Shown here piece by piece: positions 32,458-62,590 of a DNA stretch of 64,000 nucleotides. The notes beneath the pieces were generated by a model. It made no database searches and was not told the origin of the DNA. It worked only from the letters and a program-made list of their open reading frames with translations. The position numbers and the translations under genes were made by a program. Source of the DNA: Anadara kagoshimensis (lineage: Eukaryota > Mollusca > Bivalvia > Arcoida > Arcidae); the NCBI GenBank assembly GCA_021292105.1, contig CM037868.1, forward strand, positions 27,548,139-27,612,138, read 5' to 3'. The first letter of the stretch is position 1. The number at the start of each line of letters is the position of its first letter.

Positions 32458-32861
32458 GTACATGATGATCTGTACAGTACTGGATTATAAAACACAGTAA
32501 AAGTTGATCATTTCAATTATAACATGACTAAAACAACTAATTTAAAAAAGTTACCAAGTCTTTCATCAGATTAACAAATCTTATTTTCTTAATGTTTGAG
32601 ATTGACTTTCAACAAATGAAATACCCAATGAAATGGATGTTTTCAGAATTAAATTATTTTCACAATACAAAGTCAGAATCATTAATTATTGTTGATGTCA
32701 TAGGGTAGTGAAATAATGCAGTAGAAGGACCTGACTATTATCATTTAATAATGATTTGGTTTCTCTTCTTTTACAAGTCATGTTATACTACAGACAGTAC
32801 TATATTAATTAGTGTTTAATTAGTGGTTATTGTTTACACCAAGAAAGTAAATCCATCTAGT
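32458..32861. other. Spacer between two tandem arrays
   Basis: About 400 bp of AT-rich, apparently single-copy DNA with no open frame. Confidence 0.5.
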
Positions 32862-33722
32862 CATCATGCAGCCATCAGCTGAGACCACAAGTCAACTGGC
32901 CACCTAGCCATCATGCAGCCATTAGCTGAGACCACAAGTCAACTAGCCACCTAGTCATCATGCAGCCATCAGCTGAGACCACAAGTCAACTAGCCACCTA
33001 GTCATCATGCAGCCATCAGCTGAGACCACAAGTCAACTAGCCACCTAGCCATCATGCAGCCATCAGCTGAGACCACAAGTCAACTAGCCACCTAGTCATC
33101 ATGCAGCCATCAGCTGAGACTACAAGTCAACTGGCCACCTAGTCATCATGCAGCAATCAGCTGAGACCACAAGTCAACTAGCCACCTAGTCATCATGCAG
33201 CCATCAGCTGAGACCACAAGTCAACTGGCCACCTAGCCATCATGCAGCCATCAGCTGAGACCACAAGTCAACTAGCCACCTAGTCATCATGTAGCCATCA
33301 GCTGAGACCACAAGTCAACTAGCCACCTAGTCATCATGTAGCCATCAGCTGAGACTACAAGTCAACTAGCCACCTAGTCATCATGCAGCCATCAGCTGAG
33401 ACTACAAGTCAACTAGCCACCTAGTCATCATGCAGCCATCAGCTGAGACCACAAGTCAACTAGCCACCTAGTCATCATGCAGCCATCAGCTGAGACCACA
33501 AGTCAACTAGCCACCTAGTCATCATGCAGCCATCAGCTGAGACTACAAGTCAACTGGCCACCTAGTCATCATGCAGCAATCAGCTGAGACCACAAGTCAA
33601 CTAGCCACCTAGCCATCATGCAGCCATCAGCTGAGACCACAAGTCAACTAGCCACCTAGCCATCATGCAGCCATCAGCTGAGACCACAAGTCAACTGGCC
33701 ACCTAGTCATCATGCAGCCATC
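32862..33722. repeat. 47-bp minisatellite, about 18 units
   Basis: The monomer is CATCATGCAGCCATCAGCTG, then AGACCACAAGTCAACTAGCC, then ACCTAGT. Units are very homogeneous; variants are TAGCC/TGGCC, AGACC/AGACT and GCAGCAATC. The last unit breaks off at GCAGCCATCCC. Confidence 0.97.
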
Positions 33723-36947: not shown

Positions 36948-36956
36948 GAGGTACGA

Positions 36957-39900
36957 GAATGTTTGATCTATATCATCATTAGTAATATGTCTAGACAAAC
37001 ACCTCACAACACTAGAATGTTTGATCTATACCATCATCAGTAATATGTCTAGACAAACACCTCACAACACTAGAATGTTTGATCTATACCATCATTAGTA
37101 ATATGTCTAGACAAACACCTCACAACACTAGAATGTTTGATCTATACCATCATTAGTAATATGTCTAGACAAACACCTCACAACACTAGAATGTTTGATC
37201 TATACCATCATCAGTAATATGTCTAGACAAACACCTCACAACACTAGAATGTTTGATCTATACCATCATCAGTAATATGTCTAGACAAACACCTCACAAC
37301 ACTAGAATGTTTGATCTATACCATCATTAGTAATATATCTAGACAAACACCTCACAACACTAGAATGTTTGATCTATACTATCATCAGTAATATGTCTAG
37401 ACAAACACCTCACAACACTAGAATGTTTGATCTATACCATTATCAGTAATATGTCTAGACAAACACCTCACAACATTAGAATGTTTTATCTATACCATCA
37501 TCAGTTATATGTCTAGACAAACACCTCACAACACTAGAATGTTTGATCTATACCATCATCAGTAATATGTCTAGACAAACACCTCACAACACTCAAATGT
37601 TTGATCTATACCATCATTAGATATGTTTAGACAAACATCTCACAACACTAGAATGTTTGATTTATACCATTATCAGTAATATGTCTAGACAAACACCTAA
37701 CACTAGAATGTTTGATCTATACCATCATCAGTAATATGTCTAGACAAACACCTCACAACACTAGAATGTTTGATCTATACCATCATCAGTAATATGTCTA
37801 GACAAACACCTCACAGCACCAAAATGTTTGATCTATACCATCATTAGTAATATGTCTAGACAAACACCTCATAGCAATAAAATGTTTGATCTATACCATC
37901 ATTAGTAATATGTCTAGACAAACACCTCACAACACTCAAATGTTTGATCTATACCATCATTAGATATGTTTAGACAAACATCTCACAACACTAGAATGTT
38001 TGATTTATACCATTATCAGTAATATGTCTAGACAAACACCTCACAACATTAGAATGTTTTATCTATACCATCATCAGTTATATGTCTAGACAAACACCTC
38101 ACAACACTAGAATGTTTGATCTATACCATCATCAGTAATATGTCTAGACAAACACCTCACAACACTCAAATGTTTGATCTATACCATCATTAGATATGTT
38201 TAGACAAACATCTCACAACACTAGAATGTTTGATTTATACCATTATCAGTAATATGTCTAGACAAACACCTCACAACACTAGAATGTTTGATGTATACCA
38301 TCATCAGTTATATGTCTAGACACACCTAACAACACTAGAATGTTTGATCTATACCATCATCAGTAATATGTCTAGACAAACACCTCACAACACTAGAATG
38401 TTTGATCTATTCCATCATCAGTAATATGTCTAGACAAACACCTCACAGCACCAAAATGTTTGATCTATACCATCATTAGTAATATGTCTAGAAAAACACC
38501 TCATAGCAATAAAATGTTTGATCTATACCATCATTAGTAATATGTCTAGACAAACACCTCACAACACTAGAATGTTTGATCTATACCATCATTAGATATG
38601 TTTAGACAATTATCTCACAACACTAGACTGTTTGATCTATACCATCATTAGTAATATGTCTAGACAAACACCTCATAGCAATAAAATGTTTGATCTATAC
38701 CATCATTAGTAATATGTCTAGACAAACACCTCACAGCACCAAAATGTTTGATCTATACCATCATTAGTAATATGTCTAGACAAACACCTCATAGCAATAA
38801 AATGTTTGATCTATACCATCATTAGTAATATGTCTAGACAAACACCTCACAACACTAGAATGTTTGATCTATACCATCATTAGATATGTTTAGACAATTA
38901 TCTCACAACACTAGACTGTTTGATCTATACCATCATTAGTAATATGTCTAGACAAACACCTCATAGCAATAAAATGTTTGATCTATACCATCATTAGTAA
39001 TATGTCTAGACAAACACCTCACAACACTAGAATGTTTGATCTATACCATCATCAGTAATATGTCTAGACAAACACCTCACAACACTAGAATGTTTGATCT
39101 ATACCATCATCAGTAATATGTCTAGACAAACACCTCACAGCACCAAAATGTTTGATCTATACCATCATTAGTAATATGTCTAGACAAACACCTCATAGCA
39201 ATAAAATGTTTGATCTATACCATCATTAGTAATATGTCTAGACAAACACCTCACACTACTGAAATGTTTGATCTATACCATCATTAGATATGTTTAGACA
39301 ATTATCTCACAACACTAGACTGTTTGATCTATACCATCATTAGTAATATGTCTAGACAAACACCTCACAACACTAGAATGTTTGATCTATACCATCATCA
39401 GTAATATGTCTAGACAAACACCTCACAACACTAGAATGTTTTATCTATACCATCATCAGTAATATATCTAGGCAAACACCTCACAACACTAGAATGTTTG
39501 ATCTATACCATCATCAGTAATATGTCTAGACAAACACCTCACAACACTAGAATGTTTGATCTATACCATCATCAGTAATATGTTTAGACAGACACCTCAC
39601 AATACTGGAATGTTTTATCTATACCATGATCAGTTATATGTCTAGACAAACACCTCACAGCACTAAAATGTTTGATCTATACCATCATTAGTAATATATC
39701 TAGACAAACACCTAACAACACTAGAATGTTTGATTTATACCATCATCAGTAATATGTCTAGACAAACACCTCACAACACTAGAATGTTTGATCTATACCA
39801 TCATCAGTAATATGTCTAGACAAACACCTCACAGCACTAAAATGTTTGATCTATACTATCATCAGTAATATGTCTAGACAAAAACCTCACAGCACTAGAA

Positions 39901-42762
39901 TGTTTGATCTATACCATCATTAGTAATATGTCTAGACAAACACCTCACAACACTCAAATGTTTGATCTATACCATCATCAGTAATATGTCTAGACAAACA
40001 CCTGACAACATTAGAAAGTTTGATCTATACCATCATTAGTAATATATCTAGACAAACACCTCACAACACTAGATTGTTTGATCTATACCATCATCAGTAA
40101 TATGTCTAGACAAACACAATGTTTGATCTATACCATCATCAGTAATATGTCTAGACAAACACAATGTTTGATCTATACCATCATTAGTAATATATCTAGA
40201 CAAACACCTCACAACACTAGAATGTTTGATCTATACCATCATTAGTAATATGTCTAGACAAACACCTCACAACACTAGAATGATTGATCTATACCATCAT
40301 CAGTTATATGTGTAGACAAACACCTAACAACACTAGACTGTTTGATCTATACCATCATTAGTAATATATCTAGACAAACACCTCACATCACTAGAATGTT
40401 TGATCTATACCATCACTAGTAATATGTCTAGACAAACACCTCACAACACTAGAATGTTTGATCTATACAATCATTAGTAATATGTCTAGACAAACACCTC
40501 ACATCACTAGAATGTTTGATCTATACCATCTTCATTAATATATCTAGACAAACACCTCACAACACCAGAATGTTTGATCTATACCATCATCATTAATATG
40601 TCTAGACAAACACCTCACAACACTAGACTGTTTGATCTATGCCATCATTAGTAATATATCTAGACAAACACCTCACAACACTAGAATGTTTGATCTATAC
40701 TATCATCAGTAATATGTCTAGACAAACACCTCACAACAATAGAATGTTAGATCTATACCATCATCAGTAATATGTTTAGACAAACATCTCACAACACTAG
40801 AATGTTTGATCTATACCATCATCAGTAATATGTTAAGACAAACATCTCACAACATTAGAATGTTTTATCTATACCATCATTAGTAATATGTCTAGACAAA
40901 CACCTCACATCACTAGAATGTTTGATCTATACCATCTTCATTAATATATCTAGACAAACACCTCACAACACCAGAATGTTTGATCTATACCATCATCATT
41001 AATATGTCTAGACAAACACCTCACAACACTAGACTGTTTGATCTATACCATCATTAGTAATATATCTAGACAAACACCTCACAACACTAGAATGTTTGAT
41101 CTATACTATCATCAGTAATATGTCTAGACAAACACCTCACAACAATAGAATGTTAGATCTATACCATCATCAGTAATATGTTTAGACAAACATCTCACAA
41201 CACTAAAATGTTTGATCTATACCATCATCAGTAATATGTTAAGACAAACACCTCACAACACTAGAATGTTTGATCTATACCATCATCAGTTATATGTCTA
41301 GACAAACACCTAACAACACTAGACTGTTTGATCTATACCATCATTAGTAATATATCTAGACAAACACCTCACATCACTAGAATGTTTGATCTATACCATC
41401 TTCATTAATATATCTAGACAAACACCTAACAACACTAGACTGTTTGATCTATACCATCATTAGTAATATATCTAGACAAACACCTCACAACACTAGACTG
41501 TTTGATCTATACCATCATTAGTAATATATCTAGACAAACACCTAACAACACTAGACTGTTTGATCTATACCATCATTAGTAATATATCTAGACAAACACC
41601 TAACAACACTAGACTGTTTGATCTATACCATCATTAGTAATATATCTAGACAAACACCTAACAACACTAGACTGTTTGATCTATACCATCATTAGTAATA
41701 TATCTAGACAAACACCTAACAACACTAGACTGTTTGATCTATACCATCATTAGTAATATATCTAGACAAACACCTCACAACACTAGAATGTTTGATCTAT
41801 ACCATCATCAGTAATATGTTAAGACAAACAATCACAACACTAGAATGTTTGATCTATACCATCATCAGTTATATGTCTAGACAAACATCTCACAGCACTA
41901 AAATGTTTGATCTATACCATCATCAGTAATATATCTAGACAAACACCTCACAACACTAGAATGTTTGATCTATACCATCATCAGTAATATGTCTAGACAA
42001 ACACAATGTTTGATCTATACCATCATCAGTAATATGTTTAGACAAACATCTCACAGCACTAAAATGTTTGATCTATACCATCATCAGTAATATATCTAGA
42101 CAAACACCTCACAACACTAGAATGTTTGATCTATACCATCATCAGTAATATGTCTAGACAAACACCTCACAGCACTAAAATGTTTGATCTATACCATCAT
42201 CAGTAATATATCTAGACAAACACCTCACAACACTAGAATGTTTGATCTATACCATCATCAGTAATATGTCTAGACAAACACCTCACAGCACTAAAATGTT
42301 TGATCTATACCATTATCAGTAATATATCTAGACAAACACCTCACAACACTCAAATGATTGATCTATACCATCATTAGTAATATATCTAGACAAACATCTC
42401 ACAACACTAGAATGTTTGATCTATACCATCATCAGTAATATGTCTAGACAAACACCTCACAACACTAGAATGTTTGATCTATACCATCATCAGTAATATG
42501 TCTAGACAAACACCTCACAACACCAGAATGTTTGATATATACCATCATCAGTAATATATCTAGACAAACATCTCACAACACTAGAATGTTTGATATATAC
42601 CATCATCAGTAATATATCTAGACAAACACCTCACAACACCAGAATGTTTGATCTATACCATCATCAGTAATATATCTAGACAAACACCTCACAACACCAG
42701 AATGTTTGATCTATACCATCATTAGTAATATGTCTAGACAAACACCTTACAACAATAGAATG
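36957..42762. repeat. 58-bp minisatellite, about 100 units
   Basis: The monomer is GTTTGATCTATACCATCATC, then AGTAATATGTCTAGACAAAC, then ACCTCACAACACTAGAAT; TTGAT repeats at 37021 and 37079 (58 bp). GTCTAGAC is an 8-bp palindrome within it. Local blocks are duplicated: the TTAGACAATTATCTC variant at about 38600, 38890 and 39296, and the CATCTTCATTAATATATC variant at about 40528, 40935 and 41398. Several truncated units lack the CTCACAACACTAGAA part (about 40117, 40159, 42001). Confidence 0.97.
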
Positions 42763-44520
42763 TACAGATAGATATGACTGTAGTCTGCTGTACAGATAGA
42801 TATGACTGTAGTCTGTTGTACAGATAGATATGACTGTAGTCTGTTGTACAGATAGATATGACTGTAGTCTGCTGTACAGATAGATATGACTGTAGTCTGC
42901 TGTACAGATACATGTAGATATGACTGTAGTCAGTTGTACAGATAGATATGACTGTAGTCTGTTGTACAGATAGATATGACTGTAGTCTGTTGTACAGATA
43001 GATATGACTGTAGTCTGCTGTACAGATAGATATGACTGTAGTCTGCTGTACAGATACATGTAGATATGACTGTAGTCAGTTGTACAGATAGATATGACTG
43101 TAGTCTGCTGTACAGATAGATATGACTGTAGTCTGTTGTACAGATAGATATGACTGTAGTCTGTTGTACAGATAGATATGACTGTAGTCTGTTGTACAGA
43201 TAGATATGACTGTAGTCTGCTGTACAGATAGATATGACTGTAGTCAGTTGTACAGGTAGATATGACTGCAGTCTGTTGTATGACTGTAGTCAGTTGTACA
43301 GATAGATATGACTGTAGTCAGTTGTATGACTGTAGTCAGTTGTACAGATAGATATGACTGTAGTCTGTTGTATGACTGTAGTCAGTTGTACAGATAGATA
43401 TGACTGTAGTCTGTTGTATGACTGTAGTCAGTTGTACAGATAGATATGACTGTAGTCAGTTGTATGACTGTAGTCAGTTGTACAGATAGATATGACTGTA
43501 GTCAGTTGTATGACTGTAGTCAGTTGTACAGATAGATATGACTGTAGTCTGTTGTACAGATAGATATGACTGTAGTCAGTTGTACAGATAGATATGACTG
43601 TAGTCTGCTGTACAGATAGACATGACTGTAGTCTGCTGTACAGATAGATATGACTGTAGTCTGCTGTACAGATAGATATGACTGTAGTCAGTTGTACAGA
43701 TAGATATGACTGTAGTCAGTTGTATGACTGTAGTCAGTTGTACAGATAGATATGACTGTAGTCTGCTGTACAGATAGATATGACTGTAGTCAGTTGTACA
43801 GATAGATATGACTGTAGTCTGCTGTACAGATACATGTAGATATGACTGTAGTCAGTTGTACAGATAGATATGACTGTAGTCAGTTGTACAGATAGATATG
43901 ACTGTAGTCTGCTGTACAGATAGATATGACTGTAGTCTGTTGTACAGATAGATATGACTGTAGTCTGCTGTACAGATAGATATGACTGTAGTCTGTTGTA
44001 CAGATAGATATGACTGTAGTCTGTTGTACAGATAGATATGACTGTAGTCTGCTGTACAGATAGATATGACTGTAGTCAGTTGTACAGATAGATATGACTG
44101 TAGTCTGTTGTACAGATAGATATGACTGTAGTCTGCTGTACAGATAGATATGACTGTAGTCAGTTGTACAGATAGATATGACTGTAGTCTGCTGTACAGA
44201 TAGATATGACTGTAGTCAGTTGTACAGATAGATATGACTGTAGTCTGCTGTACAGATAGATATGACTGTAGCCTGTTGTACAGATAGATATGACTGTAGT
44301 CTGCTGTACAGATAGATATGACTGTGTGTTGTACAGATAGATATGACTGTAGTCTGCTGTACAGATACATGTAGATATGACTGTAGTCTGTTGTACAGAT
44401 AGATATGACTGTAGTCAGTTGTACAGATAATATGACTGTAGTCTGTTGTACAGATAGATATGACTGTAGTCTGCTGTACAGATAGACATGACTGTAGTCT
44501 GCTGTACAGATAGATATGAC
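42763..44520. repeat. 28-bp minisatellite, about 60 units
   Basis: The monomer is ACAGATAGATATGACTGTAG then TCTGCTGT. Variants are TCTGTTGT and TCAGTTGT, a 34-bp form with ACAGATACATGTAGATATG, and a 45-bp composite in which TATGACTGTAGTCAGTTGT is partly duplicated (43270-43520). It begins directly at the end of the 58-bp array with no spacer. Open frames on the minus strand are by-products. Confidence 0.97.
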
Positions 44521-57431: not shown

Positions 57432-57986
57432 TGTATACATGTACTGGAGTTATTGTGTGTATACATGTACTGGAGTTATAGTGTGTATACATGTACTGGA
57501 GTTATTGTGTCTATATATGTACTGGAGTTATTGTGTCTATATATGTACTGGATTTATAGTGTGTATACATATACTGGGGTTATTGTGTGTATACATGTAC
57601 TGGGGTAATAGTGTGTATACATGTACTGGAGTGATTGTGTGACTGGGGTTATAGTGCGATATATGTACTGAGGTCATAGTGTGTATACATGTTATGGGGT
57701 TATTGTTTGTATACATGTACTGGGGTTATAGTGTGTATACATGTACTGGAGTTATAGTGTGTATACATGTAGTGAAATTATTGTGTTAAAATGTACTAGA
57801 CTTATTGTGTATAAATGTACTAGACGTATTGTGTTTACATGTGTAAACTTATTGTGTATACATTTACCAGACTTATTATGTATACATGCACTGAAGTTAT
57901 TATGTGTATGCATGTACTGGAGTTATTATGTGTATGCATGTACTGGTGTCTTGTGTGTATACATGTACTAGGCTTATTGTGTATAC
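57432..57986. repeat. 26/24-bp minisatellite, first segment
   Basis: The monomer is GTATACATGTACTGGAGTTA then TTGTGT (26 bp), drifting towards the 24-bp form with CTAGACTTATTGT near 57800-57986. The frames on the plus strand are by-products. It is separated from the main 24-bp array by the element at 57987-58565. Confidence 0.93.
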
Positions 57987-58565
57987 CAGTGCTCCAAGCA
58001 GGTTTTGAAAACTGGTAGCCACATGGCTAATAATTCAAAAATTTCAGTAGCCATGCCAATATTTTTGTCGCCAGGTAAAATTCTTGGTGGCCAAACCTTA
58101 TATAAATATTCTATTTAATCACACCGCCCGTCGCTACTACCGATTGAATGGTTTAGTGAGATCCTCGGATTGGTCCCACCACGGGAGGCAACTTTCGAGG
58201 CGAAGCGATGAGAAGACGTTCAAACTTGATCATTAGAGGAAGTAAAAGTCGTAACAAAACCCAAATCAAAAAGTGATTTTTGCCGTTTGGCTGCCATTAA
58301 AGCAAAATTAGATCACGGTCAGTTATGCGCTTTGAACTATAAAGTCACCTGCTTTGGTTCAAGCGCTTTTAAGATATTATTGAGGGCGAAACTATTTGTC
58401 AGGTTGGGTGACAGGTCATGAACAAAATTTCCGGATTTGTCGATTTTTAATAGCCAAACTCAAAAAAATTATTTGACATAATGGCGATCATCTGACAATT
58501 TGTAGTCGCAAAATCCGATTTTTGGTCGCAAATTTCGAGTATTTACTAGGCTACTTGGAGCACTG
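57987..58565. mobile_element. 579-bp inverted-terminus element carrying an 18S rRNA fragment
   Basis: The left end CAGTGCTCCAAGCAG and the inverse of the right end (CAGTGCTCCAAGTAG) match at 14 of 15 positions. TATAC flanks both sides (57982-57986 and 58566-58570), a possible 5-bp target duplication, although the host array is rich in this sequence. Sub-terminal GTAGCCA, TGGTGGCCA, TAGTCGCAAA and TGGTCGCAAAT repeats resemble those of hAT elements. The element interrupts the tandem array and contains no open frame. The middle holds a 139-bp piece of 18S rRNA. Confidence 0.75.
58119..58257 (+). pseudogene. 18S rRNA fragment spanning helix 44
   Basis: The segment starts TCACACCGCCCGTCGCTACT, continues with ACCGATTGAATGGTTTAGTG, and ends GAGGAAGTAAAAGTCGTAACA. 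These are universally conserved sequences of the 3' minor domain of eukaryotic small-subunit rRNA. The ends fall at the two strands at the base of helix 44, the decoding-site helix; the following GGTTTCCGTAGGTGAACC is absent. The loop region (CCACCACGGGAGGCAACTTT) differs from vertebrates, as expected for this variable part. Small changes such as GAAGACGTTC in place of GAAGACGGTC suggest it is not under rRNA constraint. It is not an rRNA gene; no other 18S, 5.8S or 28S sequence is near. Confidence 0.9.
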
Positions 58566-61500
58566 TATACATGTACCAGACTTATTGTATATACATGTAC
58601 CAGACTCATTGTGTATACATGTACCAGACTTATTGTATATACATGTACCAGACTTATTGTGTATATATGTACTGGACATATTGTGTATACATGGACCAGA
58701 ATTATTGTGTATACATGTACCACACTTATTATGTATACATGTACCAGACTTATTGTGTATATATGTACTTGTGTGAACATGGACTGGACTTATTGTGTAT
58801 ACATGTACCAGACTTATCATGTATACATGGACCAGAATTATTGTGTATACATGTATCAGAATTATTGTGTTTACACGTAGCAGACTTAATGTGTATACAT
58901 GTACCAGACTTATTGTGTATACATATACCAGACTTATCGTGTATACATGGACCAGACTTATCGTGTATACATGGACCAGACTTGTTGTGTATACATGGAC
59001 TGGACTTATTGTGAATACATGTACCAGATTTATTGTGTATACATGTACCAGACTTATTGTGTATACATGTACCAGACTTTTTGTGTATACATGGACTGGA
59101 CTTATTGTGAATACATGTACCAGATTTATTGTGTATACATGTACCAGACTTATTGTGTATACATGTACCAGACTTATTGTGTATATATGGACTGGTCTTA
59201 TTGTGTATACATGTACCAGACTTATTGTATATACATGTACCAGACTTATTGTGTATACATGTACCAGACTTATTGTGTATACATGTACCAGACTTATCAT
59301 GTATACATGGACCAGAATTATTGTGTATACATGTATCAGAATTATTGTGTTTACACGTAGCAGACTTAATGTGTATACATGTACCAGACTTATTGTGTAT
59401 ACATATACCAGACTTATCGTGTATACATGGACCAGACTTATCGTGTATACATGGACCAGACTTGTTGTGTATACATATATTGGAGTTATTGTGTATATAT
59501 GTACTGGACATATTGTGTATACATGTACCAGACTTATTGTGTGTACATGTACCAGACTAATGTGTATACATGTACCAGACTTATTGTGTATACATGTACC
59601 AGACTTATTGTGTATACACGTACCAGAATTATTGTGTATACATAGACCAGAATTATTGTGTATACATGTACCAGACTTATTGTGTATACATGTACCAGAC
59701 GAATGTGTATACATATACCAGAATTATTGTGTATACATGAACCAGACTTATTGTGTATACATGTACCAGACTTATTGTATATACATGTACCAGACTTATT
59801 GTATATACAAGTACCAGACTTAATGTGTATACATGTACCAGACTTATTGTGTATACATGTACCAGACTTAATGTGTATACATGTACCAGACTTATTGTAT
59901 ACATGTACCGGACTTAATGTGTATACATGTACCAGATTTATTGTGTATACATATAGCAGACTTATCGTGTATACATGGACCAGACTTATCGTGTATACAT
60001 GGACCAGACTTGTTGTGTATACATATATTGGAGTTATTGTGTATACATGTACCAGACTTATCATGTATACATGGACCAGAATTATTGTGTATACATGTAC
60101 CAGAATTATTGTGTTTACACGTAGCAGACTTAATGTGTATACATATACCAGACTTATCGTGTATACATGGACCAGACTTATCGTGTATACATGGACCAGA
60201 CTTGTTGTGTATACATATATTGGAGTTATTGTGTATATATGTACTGGACATATTGTGTATACATGTACCAGACTTATTGTGTGTACATGTACCAGACTAA
60301 TGTGTATACATGTACCAGACTTATTGTGTATACACGTACCAGACTTAATGTGTATACACGTACCAGAATTATTGTGTATACATAGACCAGACTTATTGTG
60401 TATACATGTACCAGACGAATGTGTATACATATACCAGAATTATTGTGTATACATGTACCAGACTTATTGTGTATACATGTACCAGACTTATTGTGTATAC
60501 ATGTACCAGACTTATTGTATATACATGTACCAGACTTATTGTATATACATGTACCAGACTTAATGTGTATACATGTACCAGACTTATTGTGTATACATGT
60601 ACCAGACTTAATGTGTATACATGTACCAGACTTATTGTATATACATGTACCAGACTTATTGTGTATACATGTACCAGACTTATTGTATATACATGTACCA
60701 GACTTAATGTGTATACATGTACCAGACTTATTGTATATACATGTACCAGACTTATTGTGTATACATATACCAGACTTATTGTGTATATATGGACTGGACT
60801 TATTGTAAATACATTTACCAGACTTTTTGTGTATACATGGACTGGCTTTATTGTGAATACATGTACCAGACTTATTGTGTATACATATACCAGACTTATT
60901 GTGTATACATATACCAGACTTATTGTGTATATATGTACCAGATTTATTGTATATACATGTACCAGACTTATTGTGTATACATATACCAGACATATTGTGT
61001 ATACATATACCAGACTTATTGTGTATACATATACCAGATTTATTGTGTATACATGTACCAGACTTATTGTGTATATATGGACTGGACTTACTGTGAATAC
61101 ATGTACCAGACTTATTGTGTATACATGTACCAGACTTTTTGTGTATACATGGACTGGACTTATTGTGAATACATGTACCAGATTTATTGTGTATACATGT
61201 ACCAGACTTATTGTGTATACATGTACCAGACTTTTTGTGTATACATGGACTGGACTTATTGTGAATACATGTACCAGATTTATTGTGTATACATGTACCA
61301 GACTTATTGTGTATACATGTACCAGACTTATTGTGTATATATGGACTGGTCTTATTGTGTATACATGTACCAGACTTATTGTATATACATGTACCAGACT
61401 TATTGTGTATACATGTACCAGACTTATTGTGTATACATGTACCAGACTTATTGTGTATACATGTACCAGACTTATTGTATATACATGTACCAGACTTATT

Positions 61501-62590
61501 GTGTATATATGGACTGGACTTATTGTGTATACATGTACCAGACTTATTGTATATACATGTACCAGACTTATTGTGTATACATGTACCAGACTTATTGTGT
61601 ATACATGTACCAGACTTATTGTGTATACATGTACCAGACTTATTGTGTATACATGTACCAGACTTTTTGTATATACATGTACCAGACTTATTGTATATAC
61701 ATGTACCAGACTTATTGTGTATACATGTACCAGATTTATTGTGTATACATGTACCAGACTTATTGTGTATACATGTACCAGACTTATTGTATATACATGT
61801 ACCAGACTTTTTGTGTATACATGGACTGGACTTATTGTGAATACATGTTCCAGATTTATTGTGTATACATGGACTGGACTTATTGTGAATACATGTACCA
61901 GATTTATTGTGTATACATGTACCAGACTTATTGTGTATATATGGACTGGACTTACTGTGAATACATGTACCAGACTTATTGTATATACATGTACCAGACT
62001 TATTGTGTATACATGAACCAGACCTCTTGTGTATATATGGACTGGACTTACTGTGAATACATGTACCAGACTTATTGTGAATACATGTACCAGACTTATT
62101 GTGTATACATGTACCAGGCTTAATGTGTATACATGTACCAGACTTATTGTGTATATATGTACTGGACTTATTGTGTATACATGTACCAGACTTAATGTGT
62201 ATACATGTACCAGACTTATTGTGTATATATGTACTGGACTTATTGTGTATACATGTACCAGACTTATTGTGTATATATGTACTGGACTTATTGTGTATAC
62301 ATGTACCAGACTTATTGTGTATATATGTACCAGACTTATTGTGTATACATGTACCAGACTTATTGTGTATACATGTACCAGACTTATTGTGTATATATGT
62401 ACTGGACTTATTGTGTATTCATGTACCAGACTTATTGTGTATACATGTACCAGACTTATTGTGTATACATGTACCAGACTTATTGTGTATACATGTACCA
62501 GACTTATTGTGTATACATGGACTGGACTTATTGTGTATACATGGACCTGATTTATTGGTATACCATGTATACATGGAACAGTTTTGTGTA
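58566..62590. repeat. 24-bp minisatellite, about 165 units
   Basis: The monomer is GTATACATGTACCAGACTTA then TTGT; GTACCAG repeats at exact 24-bp steps (61391, 61415). TACATGTA is an 8-bp palindrome within it. A variant block with TTTACACGTAGCAGAC recurs at about 58870, 59350 and 60116, 480 and about 766 bp apart, showing higher-order duplication. Since 24 is a multiple of three, frames stay open on both strands for up to 700 codons; these are not genes. Confidence 0.97.

Follow-up and report, generated by a model that had tools for sequence, protein, structure and literature searches.

The stretch of Anadara kagoshimensis DNA analyzed here (64,000 nucleotides, referred to as the window) contains a complete, short transposable element that encloses a piece of 18S rRNA and lies between two satellite arrays (Table 1). 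A sequence-only reading of this DNA had proposed inverted ends and possible TATAC duplications, and both are present: the terminal repeats are perfect over 12 bp and 93% identical over 15 bp, TATAC stands on both flanks, and the whole lies inside satellite DNA. When the element and one TATAC are removed, the satellite unit is restored, as can be read directly from the sequence, and this restoration is direct evidence of insertion. Satellite arrays make up more than half of the window (4009–32457, 32853–33722, 36956–44520, and 57432–62569), with units of 38, 51, 47, 58, 28/56, 26, and 24 bp; the long open frames within them are mostly repeats.

Table 1. Features of the element and its insertion site, in window coordinates
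Feature	Position	Strand	Basis or remark
Complete non-autonomous hAT element with 18S helix 44	57987..58565	+	Ends, target-site duplications, dispersed copies, junction counts
Left target-site duplication, TATAC	57982..57986	.	Read from sequence
Right target-site duplication, TATAC	58566..58570	.	Read from sequence
Left terminal inverted repeat, CAGTGCTCCAAG	57987..57998	+	Perfect 12 bp
Right terminal inverted repeat (CAGTGCTCCAAG in reverse complement)	58554..58565	-	Perfect 12 bp
Left arm	57987..58119	+	Common to rRNA-less relatives and the end of the 4,398-bp L105
18S rRNA helix 44 piece, 138 bp	58120..58257	+ (rRNA sense; the transposase remnant is on the other strand)	RF01960 match and pairs
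Right arm, equal to the parental hAT 5′ end and comprising upstream sequence and the initial transposase codons	58258..58565	-	
Transposase-start remnant MAAKRQKSLFDLGF, continuing into antisense rRNA	58256..58297	-	Similar reading in L067 and L105
26-bp satellite, left of the insertion	57432..57982	.	
24-bp satellite, right of the insertion	58564..62569	.	Array as called extends 2 bases into the element

The rRNA piece is identified by a match of positions 58125–58259 to the Rfam model RF01960 (60 bits against a cut-off of 50, E = 2.1e-15, model positions 1670–1798); a fast Rfam scan of the whole window gave no hits and missed it. In the Rfam structure the outermost pair of helix 44 joins 58126 to 58255, and the rRNA runs beyond this pair by 6 nt on the 5′ side and 2 nt on the 3′ side. 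The piece presumably corresponds to about 1395–1503 in E. coli numbering. The earlier claim of 139 bp with limits at the base of helix 44 is thus correct to within a few bases, the actual piece being 138 bp with these short overhangs. The accompanying concern that such elements could confuse 18S amplicon surveys holds in part: the 3′ parts of a 1391F-type and a 1492R-type primer site are presumably present in the element, but the usual eukaryotic V9 reverse site, beyond helix 45, would fall outside it.

The genome to which the window belongs (1.115 Gb in 36 contigs, with nearly all of the sequence in nineteen of them, C1–C19) contains many copies. A search with the whole element gave at least 40 full-length matches at 94–100% identity, the window's own included, as scored among 430 first-look candidates; the 40 closest copies are 564–588 bp long. 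A perfect 5-bp duplication flanks 33 of 40 copies (the window and the 39 best others), and none of the 40 matches at 8 bp; when left and right flanks of different copies in this set were paired as a control, 2 of 1,560 pairs agreed. The right rRNA/element junction, sought as a 23-base pattern with at most two mismatches, occurs at 328 places (184 + 144), against 1 for the reversed-pattern control. Not all of these places are separate insertions: L046 and L047, 8 kb apart on contig C5 in opposite orientation and with common flanks, probably go back to a single insertion that was copied by inverted segmental duplication. Ten loci were fetched as the first-listed junction places, all with 0 mismatches; nine of them are complete and differ by 3.5–4.9% from the family majority sequence.

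Both arms are found in 81 rRNA-bearing and 21 rRNA-less copies of a broader sample of 104 loci, exclusive of the window; the remaining two (L074 and L121) are incomplete. Omitted from this sample were L092 (a repeat of L067), second views of included copies (L001–L008, L048–L055, and L057), and L113–L115, which lie outside the family. Perfect 5-bp duplications flank 66 of the 81 rRNA-bearing and 15 of the 21 rRNA-less copies, proportions that are not a census, since most of the loci were selected for ranking highest in searches with the element, the rRNA, a single arm, or the interior of the rRNA-less form. The 66 perfect rRNA-bearing copies display 62 different duplication sequences, and mismatched flank pairs agree in 11 of 6,480 cases. 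These searches confirm a multicopy family, most of whose members have their own target duplications, and the inverted ends, the 5-bp duplications, and the dispersal of rRNA-bearing copies support the earlier description of a DNA element that has inverted termini and contains 18S helix 44. One copy has a related element nested in its rRNA piece (L072:797–1669, with ends CAGGGCTCCAAGTAGG...CTACTTGGAGCCCTG) and TAGAG on both sides; the nested element looks like a member of a sister hAT family with 5-bp duplications.

Elements of the hAT superfamily have short terminal inverted repeats beginning with CAG or CAGTG, and the perfect 12-bp CAGTGCTCCAAG is of this type. A transposase with the hAT dimerization domain is found in the family, in L105, which has the ends and arms of the element. 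The usual 8-bp target duplications of hAT elements are not seen; the 5-bp duplications instead fit the hAT5 group, which comprises hAT transposons with duplications of this length (Kapitonov and Jurka 2007, cited in PMC12730594). The hAT5-like assignment is drawn from the CAGTG... ends and the 5-bp duplications. Transib/RAG-type elements also make 5-bp duplications, and such an origin is rejected because the transposase of the family is hAT. SINEs derived from rRNA have A-rich or LINE-like tails, duplications of variable length, and no inverted ends; the present element, with its inverted ends and fixed 5-bp duplications, is not one of them. It is short, retains only the first 14 transposase codons rather than an intact transposase, and is highly repeated, as befits a non-autonomous element or MITE, and its host-derived interior between intact ends agrees with Pack-TIR and Ds2-type filler elements. 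The arms of one copy (L016) contain eight subterminal TMGCCA/GTCGCA-type repeats, compared with a mean of 0.33 and a maximum of 4 in 2,000 shuffles, for a motif picked after inspection; such repeats recur at similar places in L105 and may be bound by the transposase.

Relatives without rRNA reveal what the insert replaced. One of 835 bp (L067) matches the element at 1–133 and 270–579 but has a different sequence, about 397 bp long, at the site of the rRNA; this central sequence is in part a transposase N terminus on the minus strand, exactly where the rRNA sits in the element. The N terminus reads AAKRQKSLFDLGFSGDQP in L067 and MAAKRQKSLFDLGFSGDQP in L105, and has a weak zinc-finger match (PF25431, E = 4.3e-4, below the cut-off). 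Seven more loci (L093–L099) have the same arms flanking an L067-type interior, and a genome search with the rRNA-less interior gave 47 matched stretches in 40 first-look candidate places, all 40 of which were scored. The rRNA-less forms measure 778–835 bp, or 513–544 bp where part of the interior only is present (L100–L104). In an RF01960 scan of 20 fetched loci, all 16 rRNA-bearing loci matched and none of the four rRNA-less ones did.

The 4,398-bp relative L105 has ends and arms as in the element and a TGTAC duplication. Its fragments match Dimer_Tnp_hAT (PF05699, E = 2.9e-6, 27.4 bits, above the cut-off of 21.4) and DUF4371 (E = 2.4e-4, below the cut-off); a PDB search with one transposase fragment returned a single chance-level match (E = 0.56). 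The transposase frames of L105 are separate and broken; no working transposase is thus seen, which counts against the account favored below. The interior of the rRNA-less forms corresponds to the transposase region of L105, and for this reason absence of the rRNA is taken to be ancestral and its presence a replacement. The capture of 18S sequence that the sequence-only reading had envisaged is thus borne out by rRNA-less relatives with an identical arm layout (L067, L093–L099, and L105).

The junctions of the insert are uniform. Fuzzy matching finds both expected junctions in all 81 rRNA-bearing copies, the differences being point changes and small deletions, three of which fall immediately after the right junction. 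By comparison with the rRNA-less form, and with the presumed 18S flanks, the left junction is blunt and the right permits a 2-base AA overlap. No extra duplication or poly(A) tail, such as a retroposed rRNA insert would leave, is seen at the rRNA limits, and a retroposed origin is rejected on this ground. That all examined copies have the same two junction points indicates a single origin.

Since transposase sequence occupies the exact place of the rRNA in the 835-bp form, the rRNA-bearing element is best described as an internal deletion filled with 18S sequence. The reading that we favor, with a probability of about 0.88, is that of a miniature non-autonomous hAT element (hAT5-like) that received rRNA as filler in gap repair and was then amplified with the rRNA as passenger. 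A parental element with a minus-strand transposase would have lost its interior; gap-repair synthesis would have jumped to an 18S rRNA gene as template, continued there for 138 bases across helix 44, and then returned to the element, so that rRNA sequence filled the space between the intact ends. A related transposase that still recognized these ends would have amplified the filled copy, bringing its junction to the 328 places where it now occurs, and the rRNA would have been copied along, decaying like the rest of the element. Template switching in gap repair is the most likely capture step, and we infer that the rRNA piece came from DNA rather than from RNA, that the element was mobilized in trans, and that the rRNA is a passenger.

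No match to either of two conserved 18S patterns that would mark an rDNA array was found in the searched sequence of this otherwise chromosome-scale assembly, and a conserved 18S 61-mer located three other fragments in the genome, none of them with helix 44. Two loci on contig C12 (L113:1224–1629 and L114:1222–1659) belong to another repeat, which starts with antisense 18S rRNA (RF01960 model positions about 1175–1612). These copies lie about 244 kb apart and are 92–93% alike from position 1223 onward, not before. A 68-bp palindromic stretch (L113:1571–1638) overlaps the end of the Rfam match, so that the actual length of the 18S part may be closer to 350 bp; the repeat is possibly a mobile one derived from rDNA. 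A more decayed 18S fragment on contig C8 (L115:1447–1680, RF01960 model positions 1229–1478, 85.7 bits) is perhaps an isolated rRNA pseudogene.

One feature sits uneasily with template switching. Limits so nearly coincident with those of a helix are not predicted by random switching, and they count against that explanation; they may have arisen by chance or through the capture step itself. Limits near the helix base would be accounted for if the gap had been patched by RNA-templated repair with a reverse-transcribed fragment of rRNA, the most abundant RNA. We consider such a patch unlikely, because poly(A) and an extra duplication are missing at the rRNA limits, and because DNA capture is the route proposed for the filler of hAT elements in the published accounts (PMC3260210, PMC8277862).

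A second difficulty comes from the arms. The rRNA-bearing copies do not form a single clade in a tree built from both arms; 82 of them fall in a group of 99 together with 17 rRNA-less copies, at a support of 0.39. Such mixing might be expected if related elements had captured the same 18S piece several times independently, but the identity of both junction points in the 81 copies examined makes repeated capture very improbable. We suspect that the clade fails because of short arms, truncated rows (L080 and L107), and exchange between copies. The shared junctions are therefore weighed above the arms tree, though the tree still counts against a simple history.

The sequence-only reading had also raised selection for a folded RNA module. 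Selection on an rRNA module, for instance because it folds as RNA or protects the element from silencing, could have helped this version of the element to spread. The proximity of the rRNA limits to the outermost helix pair (6 and 2 nt) would suit this idea, as would the apparent predominance of the rRNA form, with 328 junctions against 47 rRNA-less interior stretches in 40 candidate places, a rough comparison of counts obtained by different methods. The pattern of change, however, argues against it. In the 40 closest copies, differences from the majority at non-CpG cells amount to 1.7% in the rRNA and 1.4% in each arm; with CpG included, the values are 2.4% for the rRNA versus 1.5% and 1.7% for the arms. 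In a set of 77 copies that includes the window and leaves out L059, L072, L075, L076, and L080 (nested, tandem, truncated, or deleted structure), non-CpG change is 2.0% in the rRNA, 1.9% in the left arm, and 2.5% in the right arm.

Within the rRNA of these 77 copies, paired sites are changed more often (2.5%) than unpaired sites (1.0%). Changed cells at canonical pairs number 208, of which 136 disrupt pairing and 72 preserve it, and eight of the 13 pair-keeping double changes are one shared pair of CpG transitions. Copies with damaged helices, such as L045, L059, and L076, occur among the fetched loci. The rRNA piece of the window folds no better than its shuffles (z = 0.24). The insert has thus been evolving without detectable constraint after its capture, maintenance of the helix is not seen, and selection on the module is most improbable. 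An assembly chimera or rDNA contamination, the former named in the sequence-only reading as part of a possible refutation, can be dismissed: the window does lie in repeats, where assemblies can err, but hundreds of junctions (328 places), fetched copies with differing flanks and duplications, and a perfect 5-bp duplication at 66 of 81 copies already refute it.

Mobile elements with rRNA-derived sequence are known among retrotransposons. SINE3 is derived from 5S and SINE28 from 28S rRNA, and in these, as in R2 elements, a role as promoter or in targeting is attributed to the rRNA part. R2 elements have a 28S-derived 3′ UTR (PMC5035012). The present element resembles all three in its rRNA-derived sequence, but they are retrotransposons, whereas it moves by cut and paste and its 18S piece shows no role.

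The favored account, amplified gap-repair filler in a hAT element, has its own precedents. In the maize Ac/Ds system of hAT elements, Ds2 elements are deletion derivatives that keep both ends and carry unrelated filler in the interior, sometimes pieces of genes, and Ds1 elements, about 400 bp long, number 331 copies with one common filler (PMC3260210). Ds2 thus parallels the swap of an interior for filler between retained hAT ends, and Ds1 the amplification of a fixed filler to hundreds of copies. The fillers of the 39 Ds2 elements differ from copy to copy, however, and the filler here is 18S rRNA in an element with 5-bp duplications, unlike the Ds1 and Ds2 fillers, which are not rRNA as described in that source (PMC3260210). 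Among animal Pack-TIRs, hAT elements are the commonest source (208 of 370), and capture is ascribed to gap filling in single-copy cases and to fork stalling and template switching, followed by transposition, in multicopy ones (PMC8277862). Pack-hATs likewise copy host sequence into elements with terminal inverted repeats at short or absent microhomology, but their multicopy cases reach few copies, such as three derived copies of Pack-hAT-N8_XT; the terms “rRNA” and “ribosomal” do not occur in the main text (PMC8277862).

No 18S helix in a DNA transposon was found among the matches listed in a literature search whose scope mostly excluded subscription papers and Repbase reports, nothing relevant was found in PMC7348941, and a term search of PMC6004678 had no hits. 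In contig collections without eukaryotes, an rRNA-tip pattern had no match (viral and genome collections), nor did an element-end pattern (viral collection). Filler in hAT elements, hAT elements with 5-bp duplications, an amplified fixed filler (Ds1), and rRNA in retroelements are already known; a DNA transposon amplified with an 18S rRNA helix as its filler was not seen among the matches listed.

The orientation of the insert invites speculation about its effects. Because the parental gene has its 5′ end in the right arm, any transcript started there would continue directly into antisense 18S helix 44. The transposase start MAAKRQKSLFDLGFV (the start followed by V) is kept in 49 of the 77 rRNA-bearing copies, but recent decay alone would leave the same. 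If such transcription occurs, the hundreds of units might constitute a genome-wide source of antisense decoding-site RNA for small-RNA pathways against or around rRNA, or the element might be marked as self-like and so escape silencing; we give this idea very little credence.

Unusual yet understandable as a sequence capture, the family is a non-coding hAT lineage in which the gene has been swapped for a 138-base piece of 18S rRNA and the result spread to hundreds of places. It provides a clear example of the gain of host sequence by a cut-and-paste transposon, since the same genome contains a relative with transposase sequence, deleted forms, and the filled form, and the junctions can be placed to the base. 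The family also shows that SINEs and R2-type elements are not the only vehicles of rRNA sequence and that a DNA transposon can disperse it too, a point relevant to rRNA masking, RNA-seq filtering, and counts of rRNA pseudogenes in such genomes. It offers, finally, a natural test of whether silencing is influenced by rRNA-like sequence lying antisense to a promoter.
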